Source: Sulfuricurvum sp. (GTDB taxonomy: Bacteria; Campylobacterota; Campylobacteria; Campylobacterales; Sulfurimonadaceae). From it: DNA of 64,000 bases. The notes beneath the pieces were generated by a model, which saw only the letters and a program-made list of their open reading frames with translations, had not been told where the DNA came from and searched no databases. Made by a program: the position numbers and the translations under genes. Below, in pieces: positions 1,780 through 13,125 of this stretch. Where the stretch lies: assembly GCA_030692765.1 (NCBI GenBank), contig JAUYUB010000024.1, positions 62,001-126,000 of the forward strand, read 5' to 3'. Position 1 is the stretch's first letter, and each line of letters begins with the position of its first letter.

Positions 1780-1812
1780 TGTAACCGTTTTGTATCCTCC
1801 TATTTTTATAAT
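1780..1812 (+). promoter_or_regulatory. PhoB-like direct-repeat box and -10 for the phosphatase gene
   Basis: TGTAACC (1780-1786) and TGTATCC (1791-1797) form a direct repeat with an 11-bp period. Exactly 9 bp later there is a perfect -10, TATAAT (1807-1812). No -35 hexamer is needed in this layout because an OmpR/PhoB-class activator sits in its place. The same spacing is seen upstream of the TonB operon and the RTX gene. The transcript would start about 20 nt before the GTG start codon. Confidence 0.6.
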
Positions 1813-1839
1813 ACGATATAAATATACAGGAGGTTTACG

Positions 1840-2460
1840 GTGTATAAAAGATATCTGCTGGTTCCCATATTTGCTCTTGCTGGATTGTATGTTTGGTATG
1901 TCCATTTTAACTATCGCTTTGAAGTTATTGATAAAAATAAAGTGTATAAATCTGCCGCTATACCGCCAAAAGAACTTTCTGCGTATCTTCGGAAGTACAA
2001 TATTAAAACCGTTGTTGATTTACGCGATGGTGGAAGTTATAGTGATCTGAATCCTGTTAATCAATCTGAAATCGACGCAGAAGCACGTGTCATTGCAAAA
2101 ATTGCTAATGTAGAACACATTAATATACCTTCCCCGCAAGTACCAACACGTGAAACATTGACCCGTTTTTTAACTGTTATCAATGATAAAAATGCTTATC
2201 CTATCTTAATCCATTGTCATCATGGAACCGGTCGTGCACAAATTTATTCAGCAATTTATCGAATCGAAATGTTAAAAATGGCCAATGAAGAAGCCCGTGC
2301 TAAAACCAGATGGATTACAGAGATGCCTGGATATAAAAGTTCTTTTGCACGTACAAAAGAAAAAGGGGAGTTTTTAGCGCTATACCATCCCTCTGAACAA
2401 GGACCTAAAAGCACGAGAGATACTTTGCATGCTTCGTTGTACGGACTCACTATCCAATAA
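1840..2460 (+). CDS. exported/membrane-anchored dual-specificity-type protein phosphatase
   Basis: A 206-residue protein. An N-terminal hydrophobic segment (residues ~4-21) acts as a signal anchor. The body has the Cys-phosphatase fold: VYKSAAIPPKELSAYLRKY, then a VVDLRDG strand, and the P-loop HCHHGTGR (about residues 126-133), which satisfies CX5R with the nucleophilic Cys and the phosphate-binding Arg. This is the layout of periplasmic TpbA-like tyrosine/dual-specificity phosphatases; the true substrate cannot be read from sequence. The start is GTG at 1840, with CAGGAGG 8 nt upstream. It is monocistronic, and the PhoB-like box ahead of it suggests induction by phosphate limitation. Confidence 0.85.
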   Translation: MYKRYLLVPIFALAGLYVWYVHFNYRFEVIDKNKVYKSAAIPPKELSAYLRKYNIKTVVDLRDGGSYSDLNPVNQSEIDAEARVIAKIANVEHINIPSPQVPTRETLTRFLTVINDKNAYPILIHCHHGTGRAQIYSAIYRIEMLKMANEEARAKTRWITEMPGYKSSFARTKEKGEFLALYHPSEQGPKSTRDTLHASLYGLTIQ

Positions 2461-2626
2461 ATTTTGCTATTTCAAGTGGTAAGTGTAATGCACAGTTAAG
2501 CTAGAGGATATGATTTAGACTGTACGAATATTGTGTGATTGATTATTAAGGTTGTAGAAGTTGATGGGTAGCATATTAATCCCATATTCATGTTTTGAAT
2601 GAATAAAGATAAATTCTAAGCCATTT

Positions 2627-2659
2627 CGTAACCTAAGCGTAATAATTTTTATGTACCAT
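2627..2659 (+). promoter_or_regulatory. PhoB-like direct-repeat box and -10 for the TonB operon
   Basis: CGTAACC (2627-2633) and CGTAATA (2638-2644) repeat with an 11-bp period. A weaker -10, TACCAT (2654-2659), follows after 9 bp, the same spacing as in the two other boxes of this window. It lies 26 nt before the start of the DUF3450 gene, the first gene of the TonB/receptor operon. Confidence 0.55.
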
Positions 2660-2684
2660 TCGCAAAATACTTTCTGGAGTACAA

Positions 2685-3464
2685 ATGTTTGAAAATAAAA
2701 AAAAGAGTCTTCACTCTTTGGCGCTAAGTTGTTTAATGCTTTCATCTCCTTTGTTAGCCACACAAAACAATGAAGAGATGGTTCAGTCCATAATGAAACT
2801 GCGTTCCGAAGTTGAATCACTCTATTCAAAAATCGATGAAAACAAAGAGAGCTATAAATCTCAGATGAAATCGCTTGCTTCTCAAAGTGCTGATAATAAA
2901 GCACAGCTTAATCGTCAAATGACTTCAAAAAAGCTTGCTCAGTTAGAGCTTTCGAAAGTACAGTCTGATATTGCTATGGCATCAGGCAAAAATGTGAAAC
3001 TTACACCGTTGTTAGAAAGTGGGATGTCGTTGCTAAAAGAGAGCATTCGAAGTGGTATTCCATTTAAGGCCAAAGAACGAATGGCTGGAGTTGATAAAAT
3101 TAAACAACAGCTTGATGCGGGAGTTATCACAGAAGAGAAAGCGTTATCTTTGTTGTGGGCAGGATTTGATGATAACTTACGCATGACCAAAGAGATTGGA
3201 GTATTCAAACAAGAGATTGTTTTGGATAAGAAAAAAGTTCTTTGTGAAGTCGGAAAAATCGGCACAGTCATGATGTTTTTCGCAACATCAGACAATCGCG
3301 CAGGCTACGTAGTAAAAGAAGGCAATGTATACGATTACAAAGTGGTCAACGATGAAAAAGAGAAAGAGAAGATTGTCGCATTGTTTAGTGCATTGAAATT
3401 ACAAATTCGAACAGGGTATTTCCAGCTTCCAAATGCCTTAGTAATGATGGAGGGTGGAAAATGA
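2685..3464 (+). CDS. DUF3450-family periplasmic protein of a TonB system
   Basis: A 259-residue protein with a signal peptide (positive start, hydrophobic SLALSCLMLSSPLLA, cleavage near residue 25). A long coiled coil spans ~30-100 and an alpha/beta C-terminal part covers ~170-255. Length, coiled coil and position match DUF3450 proteins, which accompany the long ExbB of TtpC-type TonB2 systems in marine bacteria. It is probably a periplasmic accessory to the energising complex; its exact role is unknown. TGGAG precedes the ATG. The stop overlaps the next gene by 4 nt, and it is the first gene of an operon running to 10872 or beyond. Confidence 0.8.
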   Translation: MFENKKKSLHSLALSCLMLSSPLLATQNNEEMVQSIMKLRSEVESLYSKIDENKESYKSQMKSLASQSADNKAQLNRQMTSKKLAQLELSKVQSDIAMASGKNVKLTPLLESGMSLLKESIRSGIPFKAKERMAGVDKIKQQLDAGVITEEKALSLLWAGFDDNLRMTKEIGVFKQEIVLDKKKVLCEVGKIGTVMMFFATSDNRAGYVVKEGNVYDYKVVNDEKEKEKIVALFSALKLQIRTGYFQLPNALVMMEGGK

Positions 3465-4774
3465 AAAGAATAGTAATAAGCGTATTATTTGTTGCGTTGA
3501 GTTTAGCACATGCGAACGATATTACCAATGCATACGCAAAAGAGTTTGCATTTCTAAAAGCGCAAAAAACCGAGCTTCAGAATCGCTTGCAAAAAGAGAA
3601 AAAAGAGCAAGACATTCAAATCATGAAATTGAATCAAGAGGTCGGTGGACTTCAAAATCAGTACATACAAGCAACACAGTCTACGGATGCATTGCAAATG
3701 GATGTAAAAAAAACGTCAGAGTCTCTTGGTGATGCAACAGGAAATAAAGAAATTGTTGCAAGTCTTGCAATTCAGGCAAAGAATACACTCAGTGATAATG
3801 GAGCACCGATCAAAGATGAGTCCATTTCCGATTTAGCAGCAATCGAACTTGCTTTTAATGAATCAGCGAGATTATTTAAAGAACTATCTTCTATTCGTAA
3901 AACACAGGGAGAGTTCTTTCTTCAAGACGGAACCAGTGTTAAAGGTGAAATTGTCCATGTTGGAAATGTAGCTGCGTACGGTATATCGTCAGAAGGTGCA
4001 GGAGCACTTGCCCCTGCTGGAAATGGTGCGTTTAAACTGTGGAATCAACAAGGACCGCTAAGTGAAGGTAAGATGTTGGCTGATGGTAAAATGCCTCAAG
4101 AGCTCAATATGTTTATTTATGAAACCCTCGACAAAGAAGTTGATTATCCGAAAGAAAAAACCATAAAAGAGACTTTAGATATGGGTGGCCCTATTGCATA
4201 TTTTATTGTAGTACTTGGTATACTTGGCCTATTCCTTCTTCTTTATAAAGTTAAAGTACTATTAAATGCGGGTTCAAATGTAGAAGAAATCAAACAAATT
4301 ATTGTGGACAAATTGCAAAATGGAAAAGGTGATGAAGCACTTGATGCAATTAACGGTTATCATGGCTCTGTTGCAAGGGTAATGAAAGCAACGCTGAGAA
4401 ACATAAAGTCAGACAGAGAGCATATTGAAGACATTATTACGGAAAATATCATCAATGAAAGTACTAACATCGATCAATATGGAAACTTTATACTTGTTCT
4501 TGCAGCGGTAGCACCATTGGTTGGTCTTTTGGGTACGGTTACGGGTATGATAACAACATTTGATGAGATTGCATCGTTTGGAACAAGTGATCCAAAACTT
4601 CTCTCGGGAGGGATCTCTGAAGCGCTTGTAAATACAGAGTTAGGACTTGCCGTAGCTATTCCTTTGCTTTTGGGAGGAAATCTTCTTTCGGGTTGGGCAC
4701 AGAGAATAAAAGATACGATGGAGCAAAGTGCATTACATATCGTTAATGTCCATAAAAAGCATAAAATACAATGA
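3461..4774 (+). CDS. TtpC-like long ExbB/TolQ-family proton-channel protein
   Basis: A 437-residue protein. A signal peptide (residues 1-18) is followed by a periplasmic coiled-coil domain (~20-120), a globular periplasmic part, and then the MotA/TolQ/ExbB domain with membrane helices near 243-265, 340-362 and 390-411. The signature APLVGLLGTVTGM is intact. The periplasmic extension ahead of the ExbB domain is the feature that separates TtpC-type proteins of TonB2 systems from ordinary ExbB. It probably couples the proton gradient to TonB together with the next two proteins. It overlaps both the DUF3450 gene and the second exbB by 4 nt. Confidence 0.88.
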   Translation: MKRIVISVLFVALSLAHANDITNAYAKEFAFLKAQKTELQNRLQKEKKEQDIQIMKLNQEVGGLQNQYIQATQSTDALQMDVKKTSESLGDATGNKEIVASLAIQAKNTLSDNGAPIKDESISDLAAIELAFNESARLFKELSSIRKTQGEFFLQDGTSVKGEIVHVGNVAAYGISSEGAGALAPAGNGAFKLWNQQGPLSEGKMLADGKMPQELNMFIYETLDKEVDYPKEKTIKETLDMGGPIAYFIVVLGILGLFLLLYKVKVLLNAGSNVEEIKQIIVDKLQNGKGDEALDAINGYHGSVARVMKATLRNIKSDREHIEDIITENIINESTNIDQYGNFILVLAAVAPLVGLLGTVTGMITTFDEIASFGTSDPKLLSGGISEALVNTELGLAVAIPLLLGGNLLSGWAQRIKDTMEQSALHIVNVHKKHKIQ

Positions 4775-5394
4775 TGTTTGCACCTCTAGAAAGCATAAAA
4801 GAGTTTATCGAGCTGATGAACAGCGGTGAAACGATTATGTGGGTACTTTTTGTACTCAATCTTATGCTCTGGTATGGCCTTGGATACCGTTATGCAGCAC
4901 TTACGAGGGGTACTGCTGGCAGTGTCAGACACCTTTTGGATAAACATGAAATAAACGGCGAAAAACAACCCATACGTGGGATGTTAGATTATGCTGTTAT
5001 TGATGCAATCAGTGCAAAAAATGAAGCCAATGGCATACTTCAAGATTGCAGAGACTATGTTTATGATGCTCTTTTTCCTTATTATATGGAAATTGGAAAA
5101 TATTCTATATTGATTAGGACAATTGCTTTACTGGCACCTCTCGTTGGATTGCTTGGAACTGTCACCGGAATGATTGAGACTTTTGATGCATTACAGACTT
5201 CTAGTATGTATTCACAATCAAACAGTATATCTGGGGGGATTTCAAAAGCACTCCTTGCAACTGAACTTGGTTTAATGGTTGCTGTTCCAGGATTGATTTT
5301 AGGAAAAATATTGGATAGAAAAGAAGAACGACTTGAGCTTGATTTCGAACAAGTAACAAAAATATTAAGTACGAAGGATTCACATGAGATGTAG
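4771..5394 (+). CDS. exbB: ExbB/TolQ-family proton-channel protein
   Basis: A 207-residue protein with three membrane helices: residues ~20-40, ~115-140 (LAPLVGLLGTVTGMIETF) and ~155-178 (TELGLMVAVPGLILGKIL). This is a normal-length ExbB without the extra periplasmic domain of its neighbour. With ExbD it forms the inner-membrane proton channel that energises TonB. The ATGA overlap with the long ExbB and the 11-nt overlap with exbD indicate a coupled operon. Confidence 0.9.
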   Translation: MMFAPLESIKEFIELMNSGETIMWVLFVLNLMLWYGLGYRYAALTRGTAGSVRHLLDKHEINGEKQPIRGMLDYAVIDAISAKNEANGILQDCRDYVYDALFPYYMEIGKYSILIRTIALLAPLVGLLGTVTGMIETFDALQTSSMYSQSNSISGGISKALLATELGLMVAVPGLILGKILDRKEERLELDFEQVTKILSTKDSHEM

Positions 5395-5788
5395 ACGAAA
5401 ACAACATGATGCAGATAACTTAAATCTTACCCCACTTATTGATGTTTTGTTTGTTTTATTGATATTTTTTATGGTCACAACTACCTTTGTTAAAGATATG
5501 AAAGTGGATATCGATCGTCCAGCTGCTGCTTCAGCTGCCGTAGCGGACGTAAAAGTAATACGAGTCTATATCGATAGCTCCAATGAGATTTACATTGATA
5601 ATCAGCCAATCAAATTGTGGGCGATACAATCGAAATTACGTGATCTTCTCCGCACATCTGCTGAAAAATCGATATTGGTGGTGAGCGATTCGAAGATTCC
5701 GGTCAACTCTTTGATCGATGTTGTTGATGAGTGTCGAATGAGCGGTGCAAAAGAGGTCGCGGTATCAACGACCAAAGAGCTTGGGTAA
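5384..5788 (+). CDS. exbD: ExbD/TolR-family protein
   Basis: A 134-residue protein with the ExbD pattern. A short cytoplasmic N-terminus is followed by the membrane helix NLTPLIDVLFVLLIFFMVTT (residues ~10-30) with the proton-carrying Asp, and then a periplasmic domain of about 95 residues with the usual SKIPVNSLIDVVDECR region. It is the partner of the two ExbB proteins upstream. The GAAGGA just before the ATG is a ribosome site inside the exbB 3' end. Confidence 0.92.
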   Translation: MRCRRKQHDADNLNLTPLIDVLFVLLIFFMVTTTFVKDMKVDIDRPAAASAAVADVKVIRVYIDSSNEIYIDNQPIKLWAIQSKLRDLLRTSAEKSILVVSDSKIPVNSLIDVVDECRMSGAKEVAVSTTKELG

Positions 5789-5794
5789 TTCATA

Positions 5795-6424
5795 ATGGCA
5801 ATGCACATCAACACAAGGAAGAGGCACAAGTTTGCTCTTTTAACCGCAATTATCGGTTCGATAATTATGATGATGCTCGTCTTAGCATTTAACAAACCAT
5901 CAGATAAAAAAGCAGAAACGGTGGTTGCAAAAAGTAGAATTTTGGATGTTAAACGCCAAGAACAAGTCAAGCAGAATGAAGCAAAGAGCCAGCCTAAATC
6001 AGAACCAAAGCAAGCACCGGCAAACAACAACGCGCTTCCTGACATAGGCTCAATGGTCGGCGGAATTGCGATGAATATTCCCGAGCTATCTTTGGGCGGT
6101 CTTATTCAAGATGCGGCATCTTTGCTGGATGAAGGTTCAGACGATGGCGATGGAAGTGTTGATACTTCGCCTAAAGTACTGACGCGTACCGAGATGGAAT
6201 ACCCAAGCAATGCTGCTAAAGAGGGTTTGCATGGGTATGTCGTTGTCAATGTTTTAATCGATACGGATGGCAATGTTGAGATGGTTAAAGTACTTGAATC
6301 TCAGCCATCAGGTGTATTTGATGATGCAGCTATGAGAGGGGTAAAGGATTGGAAATTTACACCCGCTATGAGCAAAGGTAAACCTGTCAAGATGTGGGCA
6401 AAACAAAAGATTAAATTTAATTAG
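5795..6424 (+). CDS. tonB: TonB-family energy transducer (short, TonB2-like)
   Basis: A 209-residue protein with one N-terminal membrane helix (residues ~11-32) and a short linker with only a few Pro/Lys repeats. The C-terminal TonB domain (~125-209) has the expected AAKEGLHGYVVVNVLIDTDG, the AAMRGVKDWKFTPA segment and the final strand. The brief linker is typical of TonB2-class proteins, which are thought to need a TtpC-like partner to span the periplasm. The long ExbB upstream fits that need. There are 6 nt between exbD and this gene. Confidence 0.9.
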   Translation: MAMHINTRKRHKFALLTAIIGSIIMMMLVLAFNKPSDKKAETVVAKSRILDVKRQEQVKQNEAKSQPKSEPKQAPANNNALPDIGSMVGGIAMNIPELSLGGLIQDAASLLDEGSDDGDGSVDTSPKVLTRTEMEYPSNAAKEGLHGYVVVNVLIDTDGNVEMVKVLESQPSGVFDDAAMRGVKDWKFTPAMSKGKPVKMWAKQKIKFN

Positions 6425-6433
6425 GACTGTATT

Positions 6434-7705
6434 GTGATAAAAAAAATTCTAACGGTACTGATATTTATCGCGTGTGCACATGGTGCAGACAATAATGCCA
6501 AAATAGGTGATTTAGATCATATGGCGATCGCGACAGCAATGGTTTATGATGGAAAATACGATGGTGCTAAATCGGAATTGGACCTAGTCGACATCAATTT
6601 CCAAGCGTTGGACCGTGCCAAATATTATACAATTAAAGCGACATTGGCATCTAAAACAAATCTGCATGAGCAAGCCGTAGAGAATTTTATTAAAGCGATT
6701 GATGAAACCAAAAAAATGGTGTATGTTTCCCCAAAAGAAGCGCAAGACAAAAAACGTAAATATCTGTTCAAAATTGGCAGTACATCTAAGGTGACAGAAG
6801 AGATAAAGAGTGACCCAGAATTTGAACACAATAAACAAATTAAAATTGAACGCCTTTATGCTAATCTGTCTCAATCGTATTACAAATTAAAAGAGTACAA
6901 AAAATGTGTTGATGCCCTCGATTTATCGGGGGAAAATGGTCAGAATAAAGCGGGTTTATACGCATTTAGAGCAGACTGCTATTGGAAAGCGGGTGAGCAT
7001 TCCAATGCGATGGAAGCACTAAATCGCGGATACGAGAAATTTTCGGATGTTCAATTGCTGAAACAAAAGTATTTTTATTTATCCGAACTAAAACTCTATA
7101 AAGCAGCAGTAGAAACAGCCAAAATTTACATTGATAAAGCTGGTAAAAAGGAAGATGACTATCTTTATCTTGCACAAATGTTAATACAGGCAAAACAAAC
7201 TGAAGATGCGATAATGATACTTGAAGAGGGGAAAATGATTTTTCCTTCCAATCCGACATTCGGCGTTATGCTGACTAATGTGTATCTCAAAAAAGAGATG
7301 CGTCACACTGGTGCAGCAATAATGGAAAGCAGCGCCAATATCGATCAAAAGTATTTAAAAGACTCTGTTGAATCTTTTCGTCAAGTTAAAGATTATTCAC
7401 ACGCTTTATATCTTAATATGCACGTAGTAGATCAAAAAGATAATATCAAACAAAAAATCGCAATGCATTTGGAGCGGGGTGAGTTTGAGCAAATTATCGG
7501 TTTAAAAGATGCGATGATGAGAAACGGGATGCAAGATGATGAAAATATAATCTATACATTGGCCTATTCTTATTACATGGCCGGTGATTATCCGAATGCG
7601 GAGATATACCTGCAATCTATAAATGATAACGATCTGTTTCAAAAAGCGACTATCATTCGTAAGAATATTGAAAAATGTAAAGCTAATCCAAGGGAGTGTA
7701 TCTAA
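6434..7705 (+). CDS. periplasmic tetratricopeptide-repeat protein of the TonB operon
   Basis: A 423-residue exported protein with a GTG start. The signal peptide is at ~1-17 (IKKILTVLIFIACAHGA). The rest is helical repeats recognisable as TPR-like units, for example around 140-175 (LYANLSQSYYKLKEYKKCVDAL), 178-205 (RADCYWKAGEHSNAMEALNR) and 375-395 (YTLAYSYYMAGDYPNAEIYL). TPR proteins are a constant member of DUF3450/TtpC-type TonB clusters and probably scaffold the complex in the periplasm. The stop overlaps the receptor start (TAATG). Confidence 0.85.
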   Translation: MIKKILTVLIFIACAHGADNNAKIGDLDHMAIATAMVYDGKYDGAKSELDLVDINFQALDRAKYYTIKATLASKTNLHEQAVENFIKAIDETKKMVYVSPKEAQDKKRKYLFKIGSTSKVTEEIKSDPEFEHNKQIKIERLYANLSQSYYKLKEYKKCVDALDLSGENGQNKAGLYAFRADCYWKAGEHSNAMEALNRGYEKFSDVQLLKQKYFYLSELKLYKAAVETAKIYIDKAGKKEDDYLYLAQMLIQAKQTEDAIMILEEGKMIFPSNPTFGVMLTNVYLKKEMRHTGAAIMESSANIDQKYLKDSVESFRQVKDYSHALYLNMHVVDQKDNIKQKIAMHLERGEFEQIIGLKDAMMRNGMQDDENIIYTLAYSYYMAGDYPNAEIYLQSINDNDLFQKATIIRKNIEKCKANPRECI

Positions 7706-10700
7706 TGAAACGATTATTAGGCGCCATTATGATCGTTTTAGGGGTGATAACACCTCTGTTTGCCAGTTCTGAAGGAACTTTGAGTATTTATCTGTTTAAT
7801 CAAGGAACTCCACTCGTCAATAATGAGATACGTCTTGACGGAAAGATAGATTATTCTACCGATAAAGATGGGAACCTAAGAGTAGAGCTAGCTTCCGGTA
7901 ATCATCAAGTCGAAGTGTTTGCGAAAAACAAACAAGGCAGCAATTTGGGTTACTCAAAAAAACAAGTGGTGATTAAAGAAGGGAAAAATACTCAATTGAT
8001 TATCTCATTTGAAAATGAAAAAGAGCCAAATGTCTCACTGGAGACACCGGACGATAATAAAGAAAATGGAGTTAAAAAAATCGATACTACTAAATTAGGA
8101 ATGATTCAAGGGGTAGTGTTGAATGAGGAGAAGCATCAGCCTGTTGCCAATGCTCGAATATTTGTCAAAGGGACATCCATTGACTCAAGAAGTGATACGA
8201 ATGGGCGCTTTTCTTTCTCGATTCCTGCGGAACAAAACATTTCAATATCCATTGTTCATTCTGAATACAGCGCTAAAACATTCAATAATTTAGTAGTTGC
8301 TAAAGATGCCACGATAAAGCAAACAGTTGTGTTGACTCCTGCGAGTGTAGAACTCGAAGAATTTGTAGTCTTGGCTCCAAAAGTGAGTGGATCAATTAGT
8401 AGTATCATGCTTGAAGAAAAAGAGAGTCAATCTATCACAAACATCCTAAGTTCTGAAGAGATGTCAAAAAAAGGCGATAGCGATGCTGCTACAGCATTGA
8501 AGCGTGTTACGGGTGTGACTCTTGTAGGGGGAAAAAATATTTATGTACGTGGTCTTGGGGATCGTTATTCGAATATCGAGATGAACTCTATGCCTATTCC
8601 CTCACCTGATCCAACCAAGCGTGTTGTTCCGTTGGACATCTTCCCATCAGGTGTTATTGAATCGATGAAGGTACAAAAAAGTGGTACACCTGATGTTCCA
8701 GCCAGTTTTGGTGGTGGATATGTTGATATACGTACAAAACACGATGTAAATGAAAATTATCTTCGAGTCTCAATGGAGACTAAAGGTAATTCAAATACTG
8801 GGAAAAATGTTGATGGATATCAAGGAGGCGGATCAGACTGGACAGGATTTGACGACGGATACCGAGCGATATCGACAGATATTTTAAATAATTCTCAGGT
8901 TGTGGTAGGAGAGCGTATGAAAGCATTTACTACTGACTATTTTACAAAAGAGCAATTATCGAAATTTACACAAGATTACCTCTCTCGGAATTATGATGTC
9001 ACTCAAAAGTCACTACCGATGGGCGGAAAAGGTTTTGTTGAAGGGGCCTATAAGCTTCAACTTTCTGACAAGCATAAACTAAGCTTTTTTGGAAACTACG
9101 GATATGAGCAGGATCATAAATTTAGAGAAGAATCGTATGCAAGGTATGAATATAACCAAGCTACAGGTGAACTTGAAGTAGAGCCAGAACAATATGGCAC
9201 ATTGCGTAATACAACAAGCAAATACAAGCAATCCAGATTGTTTAATATCGGATACAATTTTGATGATGTGTTCAAGCTTCAGTATACTAAGCTCTATACC
9301 CACAATACGGATGATGTCACTAGGGTAGTTAGCGGGATTATGGGTTCGAATGATGAAGATATGTCTAAATACTATTTGGACTGGGAAGAGCGTACTCTGG
9401 ATGTGAACCAGATCAACGGAACTTTTGATTATCTTTTGTATGATCACCCATCGACCGTTACTTTCGGTGCTGAGAAGGCAACTTCCAAACTCAATCAACC
9501 GAACAATTATCAATATACTTATCGAAATGAAGGAGAACCGTATCTAGATAATAGAATCTCTAATAATATCTCCAATAAACTTGAATCGGATGATGAAGTT
9601 TTAGCCTTTTTTCTGACCAACAGGTTAAATTATGAGATTTTTTCGCCTCAAGATTATTTTGAAATGGGTGTTGCATTGAGCAGTAAAGAGCGTATCTCAC
9701 GTCAGAACAAGTATTATTTGCGAAAAATCAGTGGTTCTAGCATTGTGGATGATCTAGATATGACAGGAAATATCGAGTCTATATACAACGAATATGTTCG
9801 TGATGACACACCCTACGATGAAAGATCTCTTGTTGTTTCACAATTATTTCAGCCATCTGATTATTTTGATGCTGAGGCAGAAGAACAGAGTTTTTATATG
9901 AGTGCATTCATGAATCCTACAGAGCAAATCGAGATGTTGATAGGATTTCGTAAGGTTTCATTTGAGCAAATTGTTTATCAGTACAAGGAAGATCGTCAAA
10001 ATCCAGACCCGACTAAACGTAGATTGATTCAAAAAATACCTGAATCATTAAACTTAGATGATATTTTCCCAAGTCTCAGCCTGAAATATAAAATAGATGA
10101 AATGAACCATATCGATACAGCTATTTCAAAGACATATATCGTACCTGATTTGCGTGAATTTACTGATGGTGAATATTTTCATCCTTATGAGGTTGCGACC
10201 GTTGTGGGGAATCCGGAATTAGAAAATACGAATATCTACAGCTTTGATTTGAAGTACAGTCACTTTTTCTCCGATACGGAAAATATTAAATTTGGGCTGT
10301 TTTATAAATTATTGGATAAACCGATAGAAGATGTAATGCTTCCCTCTTCTTCTTTACCGATCTATTCGTATGATAATGCTAGCTCGGCTACACTCTATGG
10401 GTTTGAGATCGATGGACGAAAAGAACTTGATTTCATTTCACCTTTATTGGAAGGATACTTTATCGGTGGAAATTTTTCTTACACGAATTCGGATGTAACA
10501 CTTAGAAAGGAGCAAGAAGCTATCTATACCACCAATCACAGACAGCTTCAGGGTTTATCTCAAACGGTGATAAACTTATCATTAGGATATGAGGCATCGG
10601 ATCGTTCGGCTGTATTTACCTATAACGAAATGGGTGAACGAATTCGTAAAGTAGGTATGATTGATGATGTTGAGCGTTTCCCGGATATCTATGAAGTACC

Positions 10701-10872
10701 AGCGTCTGTTTTAGATTTTGTATGGATGGAAAAGTTTACCCCCTCTTTTAGCGGGCAAATAAAATTGCAAAATCTTTTGGATGAGGAGACGATATGGGAA
10801 CAGGGAGGAAGAATCACCAATCGTTATAAACTTGGGCAAAGTTTTTCTTTTGGTGTTACCTACAAATACTAG
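7705..10872 (+). CDS. TonB-dependent outer-membrane receptor with N-terminal carboxypeptidase-regulatory-like domain
   Basis: A 1055-residue protein starting at ATG 7705. The signal peptide is at ~1-21. A first Ig-like/PEGA-like domain covers ~25-105, a charged linker follows, and a CarboxypepD_reg-like domain covers ~133-210 (GMIQGVVLNEEKHQPVANAR). A TonB-box-like stretch VELEEFVVLAP lies near 214-224. The plug (~240-345) contains TNILSSEEMSKKGDSDAATA and YVRGLGDRYSNIEMN. The large beta-barrel ends in an aromatic residue. Such receptors import large or scarce ligands through the outer membrane; the ligand is not known. It is the last large gene of the TonB operon, and a shared PhoB-like promoter suggests a phosphorus-containing ligand (inference). 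Confidence 0.92.
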   Translation: MKRLLGAIMIVLGVITPLFASSEGTLSIYLFNQGTPLVNNEIRLDGKIDYSTDKDGNLRVELASGNHQVEVFAKNKQGSNLGYSKKQVVIKEGKNTQLIISFENEKEPNVSLETPDDNKENGVKKIDTTKLGMIQGVVLNEEKHQPVANARIFVKGTSIDSRSDTNGRFSFSIPAEQNISISIVHSEYSAKTFNNLVVAKDATIKQTVVLTPASVELEEFVVLAPKVSGSISSIMLEEKESQSITNILSSEEMSKKGDSDAATALKRVTGVTLVGGKNIYVRGLGDRYSNIEMNSMPIPSPDPTKRVVPLDIFPSGVIESMKVQKSGTPDVPASFGGGYVDIRTKHDVNENYLRVSMETKGNSNTGKNVDGYQGGGSDWTGFDDGYRAISTDILNNSQVVVGERMKAFTTDYFTKEQLSKFTQDYLSRNYDVTQKSLPMGGKGFVEGAYKLQLSDKHKLSFFGNYGYEQDHKFREESYARYEYNQATGELEVEPEQYGTLRNTTSKYKQSRLFNIGYNFDDVFKLQYTKLYTHNTDDVTRVVSGIMGSNDEDMSKYYLDWEERTLDVNQINGTFDYLLYDHPSTVTFGAEKATSKLNQPNNYQYTYRNEGEPYLDNRISNNISNKLESDDEVLAFFLTNRLNYEIFSPQDYFEMGVALSSKERISRQNKYYLRKISGSSIVDDLDMTGNIESIYNEYVRDDTPYDERSLVVSQLFQPSDYFDAEAEEQSFYMSAFMNPTEQIEMLIGFRKVSFEQIVYQYKEDRQNPDPTKRRLIQKIPESLNLDDIFPSLSLKYKIDEMNHIDTAISKTYIVPDLREFTDGEYFHPYEVATVVGNPELENTNIYSFDLKYSHFFSDTENIKFGLFYKLLDKPIEDVMLPSSSLPIYSYDNASSATLYGFEIDGRKELDFISPLLEGYFIGGNFSYTNSDVTLRKEQEAIYTTNHRQLQGLSQTVINLSLGYEASDRSAVFTYNEMGERIRKVGMIDDVERFPDIYEVPASVLDFVWMEKFTPSFSGQIKLQNLLDEETIWEQGGRITNRYKLGQSFSFGVTYKY

Positions 10873-10977
10873 AGGGTATTTCAAGATTTTTGGTTTATCA
10901 TCGAGTAGTACAGTTCCAAGTTTGATTGTAGTTGATAAGAATTACAAGCATCATTGGAATATTTTAAAAGGAAAAAT

Positions 10978-11133
10978 ATGAAAATTGTGATTACTATAAT
11001 TGCTATCATGCTTTTTGTAGGTAGTTTTGGTGGGTGTAGCGTCGTTAATTCGAATCAAGCTTTCGATAACAAAGCCAATGAAAAGTCAGTTTCGAAAGAA
11101 AAAGAAGCAGTCTGGACCCATTTCACTTATTGA
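10978..11133 (+). CDS. small lipoprotein
   Basis: A 51-residue ORF starting at ATG 10978 with AAAAGGA upstream. A hydrophobic N-terminal segment (KIVITIIAIMLFVGSFGGC) ends in a lipobox-like FGGC with Cys19, leaving a mature peptide of about 33 residues, mostly charged. It lies 105 nt after the receptor and before the RTX-gene promoter, so it is probably the last gene of the TonB operon. The function is not known; a lipid-anchored partner of the receptor is possible. The 105 nt between receptor and lipoprotein hold nothing recognisable. Confidence 0.6.
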   Translation: MKIVITIIAIMLFVGSFGGCSVVNSNQAFDNKANEKSVSKEKEAVWTHFTY

Positions 11134-11189
11134 TACCATACCGTGTCCTCTCTATACATCCCTCTTTACATTCTTTATCAGACTTGCTC

Positions 11190-11222
11190 TGTAACATACG
11201 TGTAACCTTAATGCCATATCAT
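11190..11222 (+). promoter_or_regulatory. PhoB-like direct-repeat box and -10 for the RTX beta-helix gene
   Basis: TGTAACA (11190-11196) and TGTAACC (11201-11207) form the cleanest 11-bp-period repeat in the window. TATCAT (11217-11222, five of six to consensus) follows after exactly 9 bp. The predicted transcript has a leader of about 110 nt before ATG 11341. The gap 11134-11340 otherwise holds nothing recognisable. Confidence 0.65.
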
Positions 11223-11340: not shown

Positions 11341-13125
11341 ATGGCAGCGACAAAGCAGACCTTAACAGGTGATATTACAACGAATATGACATTGACCAAA
11401 GACAAAGTATGGGTTTTGGATGGATTGGTAGCCGTTAAGAACGGTGCTACATTGACGATCGAAGCGGGTACGATCATTGTTGGAAAAGACGGAACAGGTT
11501 CTGCAACATCGTATATGATCATCGACAAAGGTTCAAAAATTGATGCGCAGGGTACAGCTCTAGCACCGATCGTTTTTACATCTGAAAAAGCATATGATGG
11601 TGCAGCTGATGCTGTAGGACAATGGGGTGGTTTGACCATTATTGGAAATGCTGGAAATGCACAGGTTAATGCATACGAAGTGAACACTGCATTTGTAGCT
11701 GGTACATCAAATATGGCGGATAATTCCGGTATCCTGAAATATGTCAAGATTTTGAACTCTGGTATTACAATGCAGCAAGACAAAGAGATCAATGGTCTAA
11801 GTCTTGTGGGTGTTGGGTCAGGGACTACGATTGACAATATCACCGTTAACAATTCGGATGATGATGGTATTGAATTATGGGGTGGAACGGTCAATCTCAG
11901 TAACATTACAATTTCTGGTTGTACAGATGATCATTTCGATATCGATGATGGCTATTCGGGAACAGTAACAAATTTGACTATTGTACAAACATCAGGAAAT
12001 GCAGCGATCGAGATGTCTGGTACAACTAATGCGACATTTGATGGATTAACAATTACTCAAAACAAATCGAATAAAGAGGGTGTTATTTTCTTTAAGGGTG
12101 CTGGAATCGGCGGAACATTCAAAAATGCAACGATTACCGATAACGTGGCAGGAACTGCAGGAGCGATCCATAGTGATAATGCGGGAACAGATACAGCTCA
12201 CGCGAGTTTTACGAATGTTACCCTCAATGGAACATCAACAGATGCTCAATTCACTGGACCTTCAGCTATAGCGCTTAAAACAAAATTTGATGGTGGAAGT
12301 GTACAGTTTAATGGTTCAATTACTTCAGATGATGATGTATTGACAGGCACATCAGGTATTGATACCCTTTCGTATGAGACATCTGGTAAGGCAGTAAAAT
12401 TCAGCCTTGCCCTTCAAACTGCTCAAAAAACAGGAGGATCTGGAACTGATACAGTTAGCGGCTTCGAGAACGTGACGGGTTCAGCCTATAATGATAAACT
12501 GACCGGAGACAGTTCGGACAACGTGATAGATGGAGGAGTAGGCGCTGATAATATGGCAGGCGGTTTAGGCGATGACACTTATTACATCGACAACAGCAAA
12601 GATAAAGCGACCGAAGCTAAAGAAGCTGGAAACGATACGGTACACACTTCGATCAATATCACTAAAGCGATCAATAATATCGAAAACTTTATCGCCGATG
12701 GAACTTCCGGTATCACAATAGTTGGAAACACTCTTAATAATATTATCACTGGAAACAGTGGAGCAAATGTATTGGACGGGGGATTGGGTAATGATACGCT
12801 CATCGGAGGCAATGGTGCTGATACGTTTAAGTTCTCAACAAAATTAGCATTTACCAATTACGATATCATTTCTACCTTTACTTCAGGCGAAGACAAAATC
12901 GAGCTGAGCAAAAAAATATTTAAATCAATAGCAAAAACATTCACTGCTGATAATTTTATCAACGGTACCGCAGCGGTCGAAGCGACTGATTATTTGATCT
13001 ATAACAAAACGACGGGAATACTTTATTATGATGCTGATGGAATCGGAACCAAATCAACAGCGATTGAAGTGGCCATCATCGGTAACAATACTGATTTAGC
13101 TTTCACTGACTTTACTGTAGCCTGA
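11341..13125 (+). CDS. secreted parallel beta-helix protein with C-terminal RTX repeats
   Basis: A 594-residue, very acidic protein rich in Gly, Thr, Asn and Asp, with no Sec signal. Residues ~1-330 are a right-handed beta-helix type repeat, opening with the motif LTGDITTNMTLTKDK, then GATLTIEAGTIIVG and WGGLTIIGNAGNA, as in many surface-layer and envelope proteins. Residues ~335-515 carry RTX calcium-binding nonapeptides (DGGVGADNMAGGLGDD near 397, LDGGLGNDTLIGGNGAD near 477). The end resembles serralysin-type C-termini used for type I secretion. It probably leaves the cell through a TolC-type exporter encoded elsewhere. No catalytic motif was recognised. Its PhoB-like promoter ties it to the receptor operon. 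Confidence 0.85.
   Translation: MAATKQTLTGDITTNMTLTKDKVWVLDGLVAVKNGATLTIEAGTIIVGKDGTGSATSYMIIDKGSKIDAQGTALAPIVFTSEKAYDGAADAVGQWGGLTIIGNAGNAQVNAYEVNTAFVAGTSNMADNSGILKYVKILNSGITMQQDKEINGLSLVGVGSGTTIDNITVNNSDDDGIELWGGTVNLSNITISGCTDDHFDIDDGYSGTVTNLTIVQTSGNAAIEMSGTTNATFDGLTITQNKSNKEGVIFFKGAGIGGTFKNATITDNVAGTAGAIHSDNAGTDTAHASFTNVTLNGTSTDAQFTGPSAIALKTKFDGGSVQFNGSITSDDDVLTGTSGIDTLSYETSGKAVKFSLALQTAQKTGGSGTDTVSGFENVTGSAYNDKLTGDSSDNVIDGGVGADNMAGGLGDDTYYIDNSKDKATEAKEAGNDTVHTSINITKAINNIENFIADGTSGITIVGNTLNNIITGNSGANVLDGGLGNDTLIGGNGADTFKFSTKLAFTNYDIISTFTSGEDKIELSKKIFKSIAKTFTADNFINGTAAVEATDYLIYNKTTGILYYDADGIGTKSTAIEVAIIGNNTDLAFTDFTVA

Follow-up and report, generated by a model that had tools for sequence, protein, structure and literature searches.

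Candidate PHO boxes before a phosphatase gene, a TonB2-type operon and an ElpS-like beta-helix/RTX gene of Sulfuricurvum sp.

Three promoter-like sites were analysed in a 64 000-nucleotide stretch of the genome of Sulfuricurvum sp. (assembly GCA_030692765.1, contig JAUYUB010000024.1, positions 62 001 to 126 000 of the forward strand; hereafter the window). They lie before the gene of a dual-specificity (cysteine) phosphatase (unit 1), before an operon for a TonB2-type motor and a SusC-like receptor (unit 2) and before the gene of an ElpS-like beta-helix protein with RTX repeats (unit 3). The three sites are very probably PHO boxes through which all three units stand under the control of the phosphate regulator PhosR, and the units together look like an accessory phosphorus-scavenging module, as far as sequence comparison can tell. 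The architecture of the sites, their match to the pst promoters of the genus, the content of the module and its association with phosR and pst elsewhere were all read from the sequences.

A PHO box is described as two 7-nucleotide direct repeats with 4-nucleotide spacers, the half-site of Escherichia coli being CTGTCAT (PMC4415409). At all three places in the window, two 7-bp half-sites with a 4-nucleotide spacer and an 11-bp period, followed after exactly 9 bp by a -10 element, were read directly in the sequence, just as a preliminary description of this DNA had reported. Site 1 (phosphatase gene; 1780..1812, plus strand, -10 at 1807-1812) reads TGTAACC-GTTT-TGTATCC-N9-TATAAT, site 2 (TonB operon; 2627..2659, plus strand, -10 at 2654-2659) reads CGTAACC-TAAG-CGTAATA-N9-TACCAT and site 3 (beta-helix/RTX gene; 11190..11222, plus strand, -10 at 11217-11222) reads TGTAACA-TACG-TGTAACC-N9-TATCAT. 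The consensus given for them in that description, YGTAACC-N4-YGTAAYM, fits site 2 without a mismatch, whereas sites 1 and 3 each depart from it at one position. The repeats take the place of a -35 element at a fixed distance of 9 nucleotides from the -10, and all three sites precede genes in the correct orientation. No -35/-10 pair of the sigma-70 type was found on the plus strand at any of the three sites, which is what activator-dependent promoters would show.

Taken without the -10 element and the phasing, the half-sites carry little weight. The window has 6 matches when up to 2 mismatches are allowed, against 3.19 expected, only about twice the chance number, and 11 of 100 shuffles reached 6. 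Such counts favour the reading that AT-rich intergenic sequence has produced the sites by chance, the three units then not being co-regulated. So does the near equality of pattern and reversed control in genome scans with up to 3 mismatches (122 versus 106 and 108 versus 95), where the enrichment is almost nil and only close matches are therefore informative. With the -10 element and the 9-bp phasing included, the case is strong. A wider pattern (second half-site YGTWAYM, -10 and 9-bp phasing included, at most 1 mismatch) gave 16 matches in the own genome against none for the reversed pattern used as control, and 295 against 29 in 41 genomes of the genus, a share of both the 16 and the 295 belonging to a second type of box that is treated below. 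A scoring matrix was trained on the pstS promoters of 29 of the 40 relatives in the genus, with the own genome excluded; their consensus is YGTAAYC-N4-YGTTACC-N9-TACAAT, and the gap to the -10 is 9 bp in 26 of them and 10 bp in 3. Applied to both strands of the window, this matrix placed site 1 (23.8), site 3 (20.0) and site 2 (19.0) at ranks 1 to 3; rank 4 scored 10.4, so that the preliminary statement that the 64 kb hold no other such site stands. The same three sites again came out on top when the matrix was retrained on 16 divergent or 12 near pstS sites (28 of the 29 used). When 200 Mb of sequence generated by an order-2 Markov model were scanned, scores of at least 19 occurred at a rate equivalent to 0.013 sites in a stretch the size of the window and 0.43 in a whole genome; the window holds three, each correctly oriented before a gene. 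In the loci L049 and L050 the beta-helix gene lies beside the operon in inverted orientation, without the RTX tail and with an N-terminal extension, and its own box is kept through the inversion (score 21.8); the box of the operon is also kept there at its place. Against this evidence, the assumption of chance matches was considered extremely unlikely. Elsewhere in the genome, one perfect pair of half-sites (C12:186962, minus strand) was rejected as a candidate: it is situated between two plus-strand genes, points toward no gene, has no -10 element at 9 bp and scores 8.7.

In the own genome, pstS is located on one strand and phoU-phosR-phosS-pstC-pstA on the other, with a CCA-nucleotidyltransferase-like gene between phosS and pstC. 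The PhosR protein, encoded between phoU and pstC, carries PF00072 and PF00486 and is followed by a HisKA/HATPase protein; it is thus an OmpR-family regulator with a kinase and with phoU and pst as neighbours, as expected of PhosR/PhoB, and its best NCBIfam model is TIGR02154 (PhoB) at 201.5 bits, under the cut-off of 296.2. In Campylobacter jejuni, PhosS/PhosR comprises a PhoB-like regulator with pst and phoX as targets (PMC3197622). The pst and phoU genes had been proposed as the place to look for the pattern, and boxes were indeed found before pstS (TGTAATC-TTTT-TGTTATC-N10-TACAAT, score 27.6), before phoU-phosR-phosS (TGTAATC-AAAT-GGTGATG-N9-TACAAT, 16.6) and before pstC (GGTAATA-GCTT-TGTAATA-N10-TACAAT, 13.7). 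For the phosphatase genes, which had been named as a further check, the result was divided: sites with this layout also precede the phoD operon and two phoX genes, but with weaker scores. The sole mismatch-free place outside the window in the 3-mismatch genome scan is situated before the receptor-PhoD operon. The pst cluster was fetched for 20 of the 40 relatives, and a score of at least 12 was obtained before pstS in 20 of these, before phoU in 19 and before pstC in 19, the phoU and pstC sites being outside the training set; some of the sites (L134, L139, L140, L142, L147) were assigned to pstS, phoU or pstC by position, no open reading frame (ORF) having been reported downstream.

Within the genus, a homologue of TtpB, the first protein of the operon, is present in 3 of the 41 genomes, as is the beta-helix half of the unit 3 protein, the own genome being included in both counts; the RTX part of the latter matches other proteins (14 of 41 genomes in all). 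A search of the class covered 397 sampled genomes, with at most 6 candidates scored per genome, and TtpB was matched in 23 of them: the own genome, three with distant matches (21-26% identical) and 19 in other genera. A distant DUF3450 protein (L253, 20% identical) and the loci L232 and L233 were excluded from the TtpB counts; all three lack a box. The order of the operon is kept in all 19 loci of other genera, as far as the contig extends. The fetched stretch contains phosR in 15 of them (L234-L238, L240, L242-L245, L247-L251), pst genes in 7 and a PHO4-family phosphate permease in 2 (L236 and L239); the beta-helix half is encoded in 17, at 41-70% identity. Three to four tandem half-sites stand upstream of TtpB in many of the loci (for example L237, L243 and L248), the plain score for two half-sites reaching 10 in 11 of the 19, and 13 of the 17 beta-helix genes have an upstream score of 10 or more. 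As a control, unrelated ORFs of the same stretches were scored; 5 of 73 reach 10, the remaining 68 scoring at most 3.1. These five encode porin-like or comparable exported proteins and have phosR, pst, permease or receptor genes on one or both sides (one identified as a Pfam porin, two by their resemblance to the own porin and two judged by their starts). None of the 102 ORFs matched to TtpC/ExbB, ExbD, TonB, TtpD or the receptor reaches 10. In a plain upstream control with the module genes included, 38 of 242 ORFs score at least 10; the module genes were scored apart because most of the 22 such ORFs listed are those of TtpB, beta-helix, PstS, PhosR or porin-like proteins. The preliminary suggestion that one activator, plausibly of the PhosR/PhoB type, governs all three units thus gains support from the pstS-trained matrix and from the proximity of phosR to the operon in the 15 loci.

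A different OmpR-family regulator with a similar half-site, a metal regulator for instance, could govern the three units in place of PhosR. The genome offers candidates, as it contains 14 OmpR-type DNA-binding matches, 13 of them above the cut-off, so that 13 remain besides PhosR. It also contains a second, distinct direct-repeat box, CTTAACAC-N3-TGTAACAC, which shares the 11-bp period of the PHO box and its distance to the -10. Sites of the CTTAACAC type are found at C16:5304 (minus strand, L010), C21:88250 (plus strand, L013) and C28:88118 (plus strand, L016), with two TonB-receptor genes and one membrane-protein gene downstream, and the motif recurs across many genomes of the genus. The receptor behind the box on contig C28 has the TonB-copper model as its best NCBIfam match, under the cut-off. 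This second box probably marks a separate OmpR-type regulon, which is perhaps a copper regulon. The two types are told apart by the matrix trained on pstS alone, which gives 19.0-23.8 for the window sites and 6.4-12.6 for the three CTTAACAC-type sites of the own genome. When regulators adjacent to the operon in other genera were read as ORFs, and compared with the regulators from 14 loci of the own genome, 12 of 12 matched the own PhosR best. Control of the three units by another OmpR-family regulator was accordingly judged very unlikely, and control by PhosR is the reading retained.

Several observations weigh against this reading, the existence of a second box with similar half-sites being one of them. 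The own pstS and pstC boxes have a gap of 10 bp and not 9, no clear box was seen by eye upstream of the own porin gene, and the sites of phoX (8.6), the second phoX (9.3), the phoD operon (11.8) and the ornithine lipid synthase gene discussed below (6.7) score so low on the pstS matrix that they are not individually significant. Good matches also precede lepA (C19:8320, 20.4) and fusA (C25:46191, 17.0), which fit a Pho regulon poorly; we know of no phosphate link for either gene. In L049 and L050 the operon box reaches a score of only 10.0, on account of a -10 element that reads TAACAT. The phosphatase is seldom present in the genus, with 2 of 41 genomes when the own is counted, and did not turn up in any of the 19 module loci in other genera; the box of its homologue in genome G039 (GGTAATA-N4-TGTAGCC-N9-TATGAT) has the right layout and a weak score of 7.9. 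In other genera, phosR was not in the fetched stretch of L239, L241, L252 or L246, the last of which is cut short by the end of its contig, and upstream scores of at least 10 were obtained for 7 of 12 PhosR, 2 of 3 PstS and 0 of 3 PstC genes. An extended score, in which further tandem half-sites are added, is at least 10 upstream of TtpB in 16 of the 19 loci (17 of 20 with L065; 0 of 950 letter shuffles), a score that was devised after these regions had been inspected; L239, L241 and L246 stay under 10 even on this scale.

Unit 1 consists of the phosphatase gene (1840..2460, plus strand). The 206-aa product matches PF22741 (E 3e-14) and PF03162 (E 5e-7), both above the cut-off, and is probably exported, a single N-terminal hydrophobic segment having been found by reading of the translation. 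The recognised domain contains the cysteine phosphatase signature C-x5-R, as HCHHGTGR in the window and as HCYHGTGR in G039; a PDB sequence search returned weak matches only (best E 0.0018; TpbA 0.003). Some 4 kb away from the second phoX, part of the C-terminal end of this phosphatase is matched once more (C23:72766-72924, L098; 67% identity, one stop), possibly by a remnant.

Unit 2 starts with the gene of the TtpB-like DUF3450 protein (2685..3464; PF11932, E 2e-24), which is followed, all on the plus strand, by those of a TtpC-like MotA/TolQ/ExbB protein with a long N-terminal extension (3461..4774; PF01618 at residues 304-421 of 437), ExbB (4771..5394; PF01618), ExbD (5384..5788; PF02472), TonB (5795..6424; PF03544) and a TtpD-like TPR protein (6434..7705; several TPR families). 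Gene for gene, this is the six-gene order ttpB-ttpC-exbB-exbD-tonB-ttpD of a TonB2-type system. The last gene (7696..10872, plus strand) encodes the SusC-like TonB-dependent receptor, a protein of 1058 aa with an N-terminal CarboxypepD_reg domain (PF13715, PF07715), which scores 154.9 bits with TIGR01782, under the cut-off of 310, and for which a PDB sequence search gave no match. Between the receptor gene and the RTX gene, ahead of the third box, a putative small lipoprotein of 51 aa is encoded (10978..11133, plus strand; lipobox-like GSFGGC by reading).

The product of unit 3 (11341..13125, plus strand; PF13229, PF00353) combines an ElpS-like beta-helix (about residues 1-330) with RTX repeats and is probably secreted. 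It had been introduced as an RTX protein; the RTX tail is present, but the protein is better named an ElpS-type beta-helix protein with an RTX tail. No lipobox was found in it by reading, so that the surface-lipoprotein character of the ElpS family is missing, and several of the beta-helix homologues of other genera resemble lipoproteins when read in the same way. A PDB sequence search matched the protein from residue 329 onward only, that is, in the RTX part, and a structure prediction without alignment was poor (mean pLDDT 43.2).

Further candidate members of the regulon were looked for in the own genome; the 30 sites scored are a selection from the listings of the 3-mismatch scans. The ornithine lipid synthase OlsF (NCBIfam 746 bits, cut-off 620) has four half-sites upstream, the two-half-site score being the low one given above. 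A box that scores 18.8 stands a few bases upstream of an LpxH-like phosphoesterase gene (C10:20299, minus strand, L021; NCBIfam match under the cut-off), the product of which may be an enzyme of lipid remodelling similar to PlcP. A box of 19.1 precedes GspG and other pseudopilin-like genes (C17:6891-17976, L150); behind these, the same locus encodes several proteins with RTX tails that are related to the tail of the RTX protein in the window. Among the best sites is that of a MauG-like di-heme protein (C28:113393, L057; 24.6), for which the best NCBIfam model stays under its cut-off; a Flavobacterium johnsoniae table places a MauG-like gene in a PhoX context (PMC8115612). In the divergent pair at C1:59114-59193 (L054), a box each was found for an EAL-CBS-GGDEF protein (24.5) and for an exported protein of 240 aa (12.0), and three relatives (L136-L138) have a similar EAL pair with boxes in the same fetched 12-kb stretch as the pst cluster, which suggests a phosphate control of cyclic-di-GMP. 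Lipid replacement, secretion and phosphatases among the candidates fit a Pho regulon.

The following course of events is proposed for the three units. At low phosphate, PhosS would phosphorylate PhosR, and the phosphorylated dimer would bind the two direct repeats 11 bp apart, substitute for the -35 element and recruit RNA polymerase to the -10 that starts 9 bp downstream. The induced set would comprise the exported cysteine phosphatase, the operon of TonB2-type motor and SusC-like receptor and the secreted ElpS-type beta-helix/RTX protein. At or near the surface, the beta-helix protein would bind or capture a phosphorus-containing molecule, which the receptor, powered by its own motor, would move across the outer membrane, and phosphatases would free phosphate from it for PstSCAB. 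That the imported substrate is a phosphorus compound is suggested by the context and is considered somewhat probable. A rival reading keeps PhosR as the regulator but has the operon take up a metal such as iron, which might supply the metal-dependent PhoX or PhoD; Pho-regulated alkaline phosphatases require metals. The characterised TtpB/C/D system is one of iron uptake (PMC6957404). Against metal import stand the pairing of a CarboxypepD_reg receptor with a beta-helix partner, as in the phosphate-induced pairs of Flavobacterium and in ElpS/Cc0171 of Caulobacter (PMC8115612, PMC2996285), and the pst, PHO4-type permease and porin genes held by the module loci. Import of a metal under PhosR control was on balance regarded as unlikely, if clearly worth considering, and import of a phosphorus compound was preferred.

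It appears slightly more probable than its converse that TonB2-type motors are not reserved for iron and that Campylobacterota, together with some marine Gammaproteobacteria, possess a self-contained importer, switched by PhosR/PhoB, in which a surface protein of the ElpS type and a SusC-like receptor are joined to their own TtpBCD-ExbBD-TonB motor, for a phosphorus-containing polymer or an organophosphate; in the lineage of the window, this importer would stand apart from phosR and pst, with its boxes kept and the lipoprotein changed to an RTX-secreted form. The complete TonB2-type motor under a PHO box is a variant of the ElpS and PUS systems. No description of the combination of PHO box, ElpS/PUS and complete TonB2-type motor was found in the literature searched, in which large result sets were sampled and few subscription journals were covered; the work found there that brings DUF3450 together with TonB and phosphate concerns iron. 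For this group of Campylobacterota, a PHO box of about YGTAAYC-N4-YGTWAYC-N9-TANNAT can be defined, and with this usable definition phosphate regulons become readable from genomes. A motor of the TonB2 type, studied for iron, would be linked to phosphorus acquisition through a named gene set, and the findings on Caulobacter (ElpS) and Flavobacterium (PUS) are joined with that motor.

Beyond the class, residues 1-330 of the beta-helix protein match 21 plasmid records, 12 of them from Pseudoalteromonas, with 32-45% identity among the 20 matches listed. Five records were inspected, and in each a TonB-dependent receptor gene directly follows the beta-helix gene. On pBGP9 of Alteromonas macleodii the locus holds phoB, phoR and genes for a phosphate-binding protein, an oxygenase, the beta-helix protein, the receptor, DUF3450, two ExbB-type proteins, ExbD, TonB and a TPR protein. 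Two of the records, both from Pseudoalteromonas, have the motor genes ahead of the beta-helix/receptor pair, with no pho genes in view. For a box of the E. coli type (CTGTCAT), the Alteromonas locus gave a single match, which has 3 mismatches and falls within the final part of the preceding gene; the Pseudoalteromonas locus gave four such matches, of which two that overlap are placed some 140 bp upstream of the beta-helix gene. Genes of a type II secretion system come after the pair in Sphingomonas and Indioceanicola; the window beta-helix is 39% identical to that of Sphingomonas and 37% to that of Indioceanicola (E at most 1e-32), and the receptors are 24-25% identical. These two loci, in which a beta-helix protein is encoded before a TonB-dependent receptor and a type II secretion system, connect the window protein with the ElpS family.

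Among known systems, the closest counterpart of the motor is that of Vibrio vulnificus TonB2/TonB3, which has the same six proteins with TtpB (DUF3450) first and TtpD (TPR) last (PMC6957404). It differs in a potential Fur site in the promoter and in its role in the uptake of iron siderophores, whereas the window operon stands behind a PHO box and has its receptor gene in last place, a receptor gene being first in Vibrio TonB3. PUMA3 of Pseudomonas aeruginosa (phdA-pdtB-exbB2D2-tonB4) is a PhoB-dependent ExbB-ExbD-TonB set, but it also requires the sigma factor VreI, and TtpB, TtpC and TtpD are not named in the available parts of its description (PMC4971064). The half-site CTGTCAT of E. coli (PMC4415409) contrasts with YGTAAYC in this genus. 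PUSIII/PUSIV of F. johnsoniae, by their description, resemble the window in a low-phosphate-induced receptor with PF07715 and PF13715 beside the polygalacturonase-like lipoprotein FI; no dedicated TonB2-type motor appears in the part of that description at hand (PMC8115612). The FII lipoprotein of F. johnsoniae is located with phoBR, and the FI/FII/FIII lipoproteins of Flavobacterium are said there to resemble the Caulobacter protein (PMC8115612). In Caulobacter crescentus the order is elpS (cc0170)-cc0171-gsp; ElpS is made specifically under phosphate starvation, and cc0171 is reported to be constitutive (PMC2996285). The likeness, drawn from the description, lies in a phosphate-starvation surface protein encoded beside a TonB-dependent receptor (PMC2996285); ElpS of Caulobacter, however, is a lipoprotein, whereas the window protein is without a lipobox and ends in RTX repeats.

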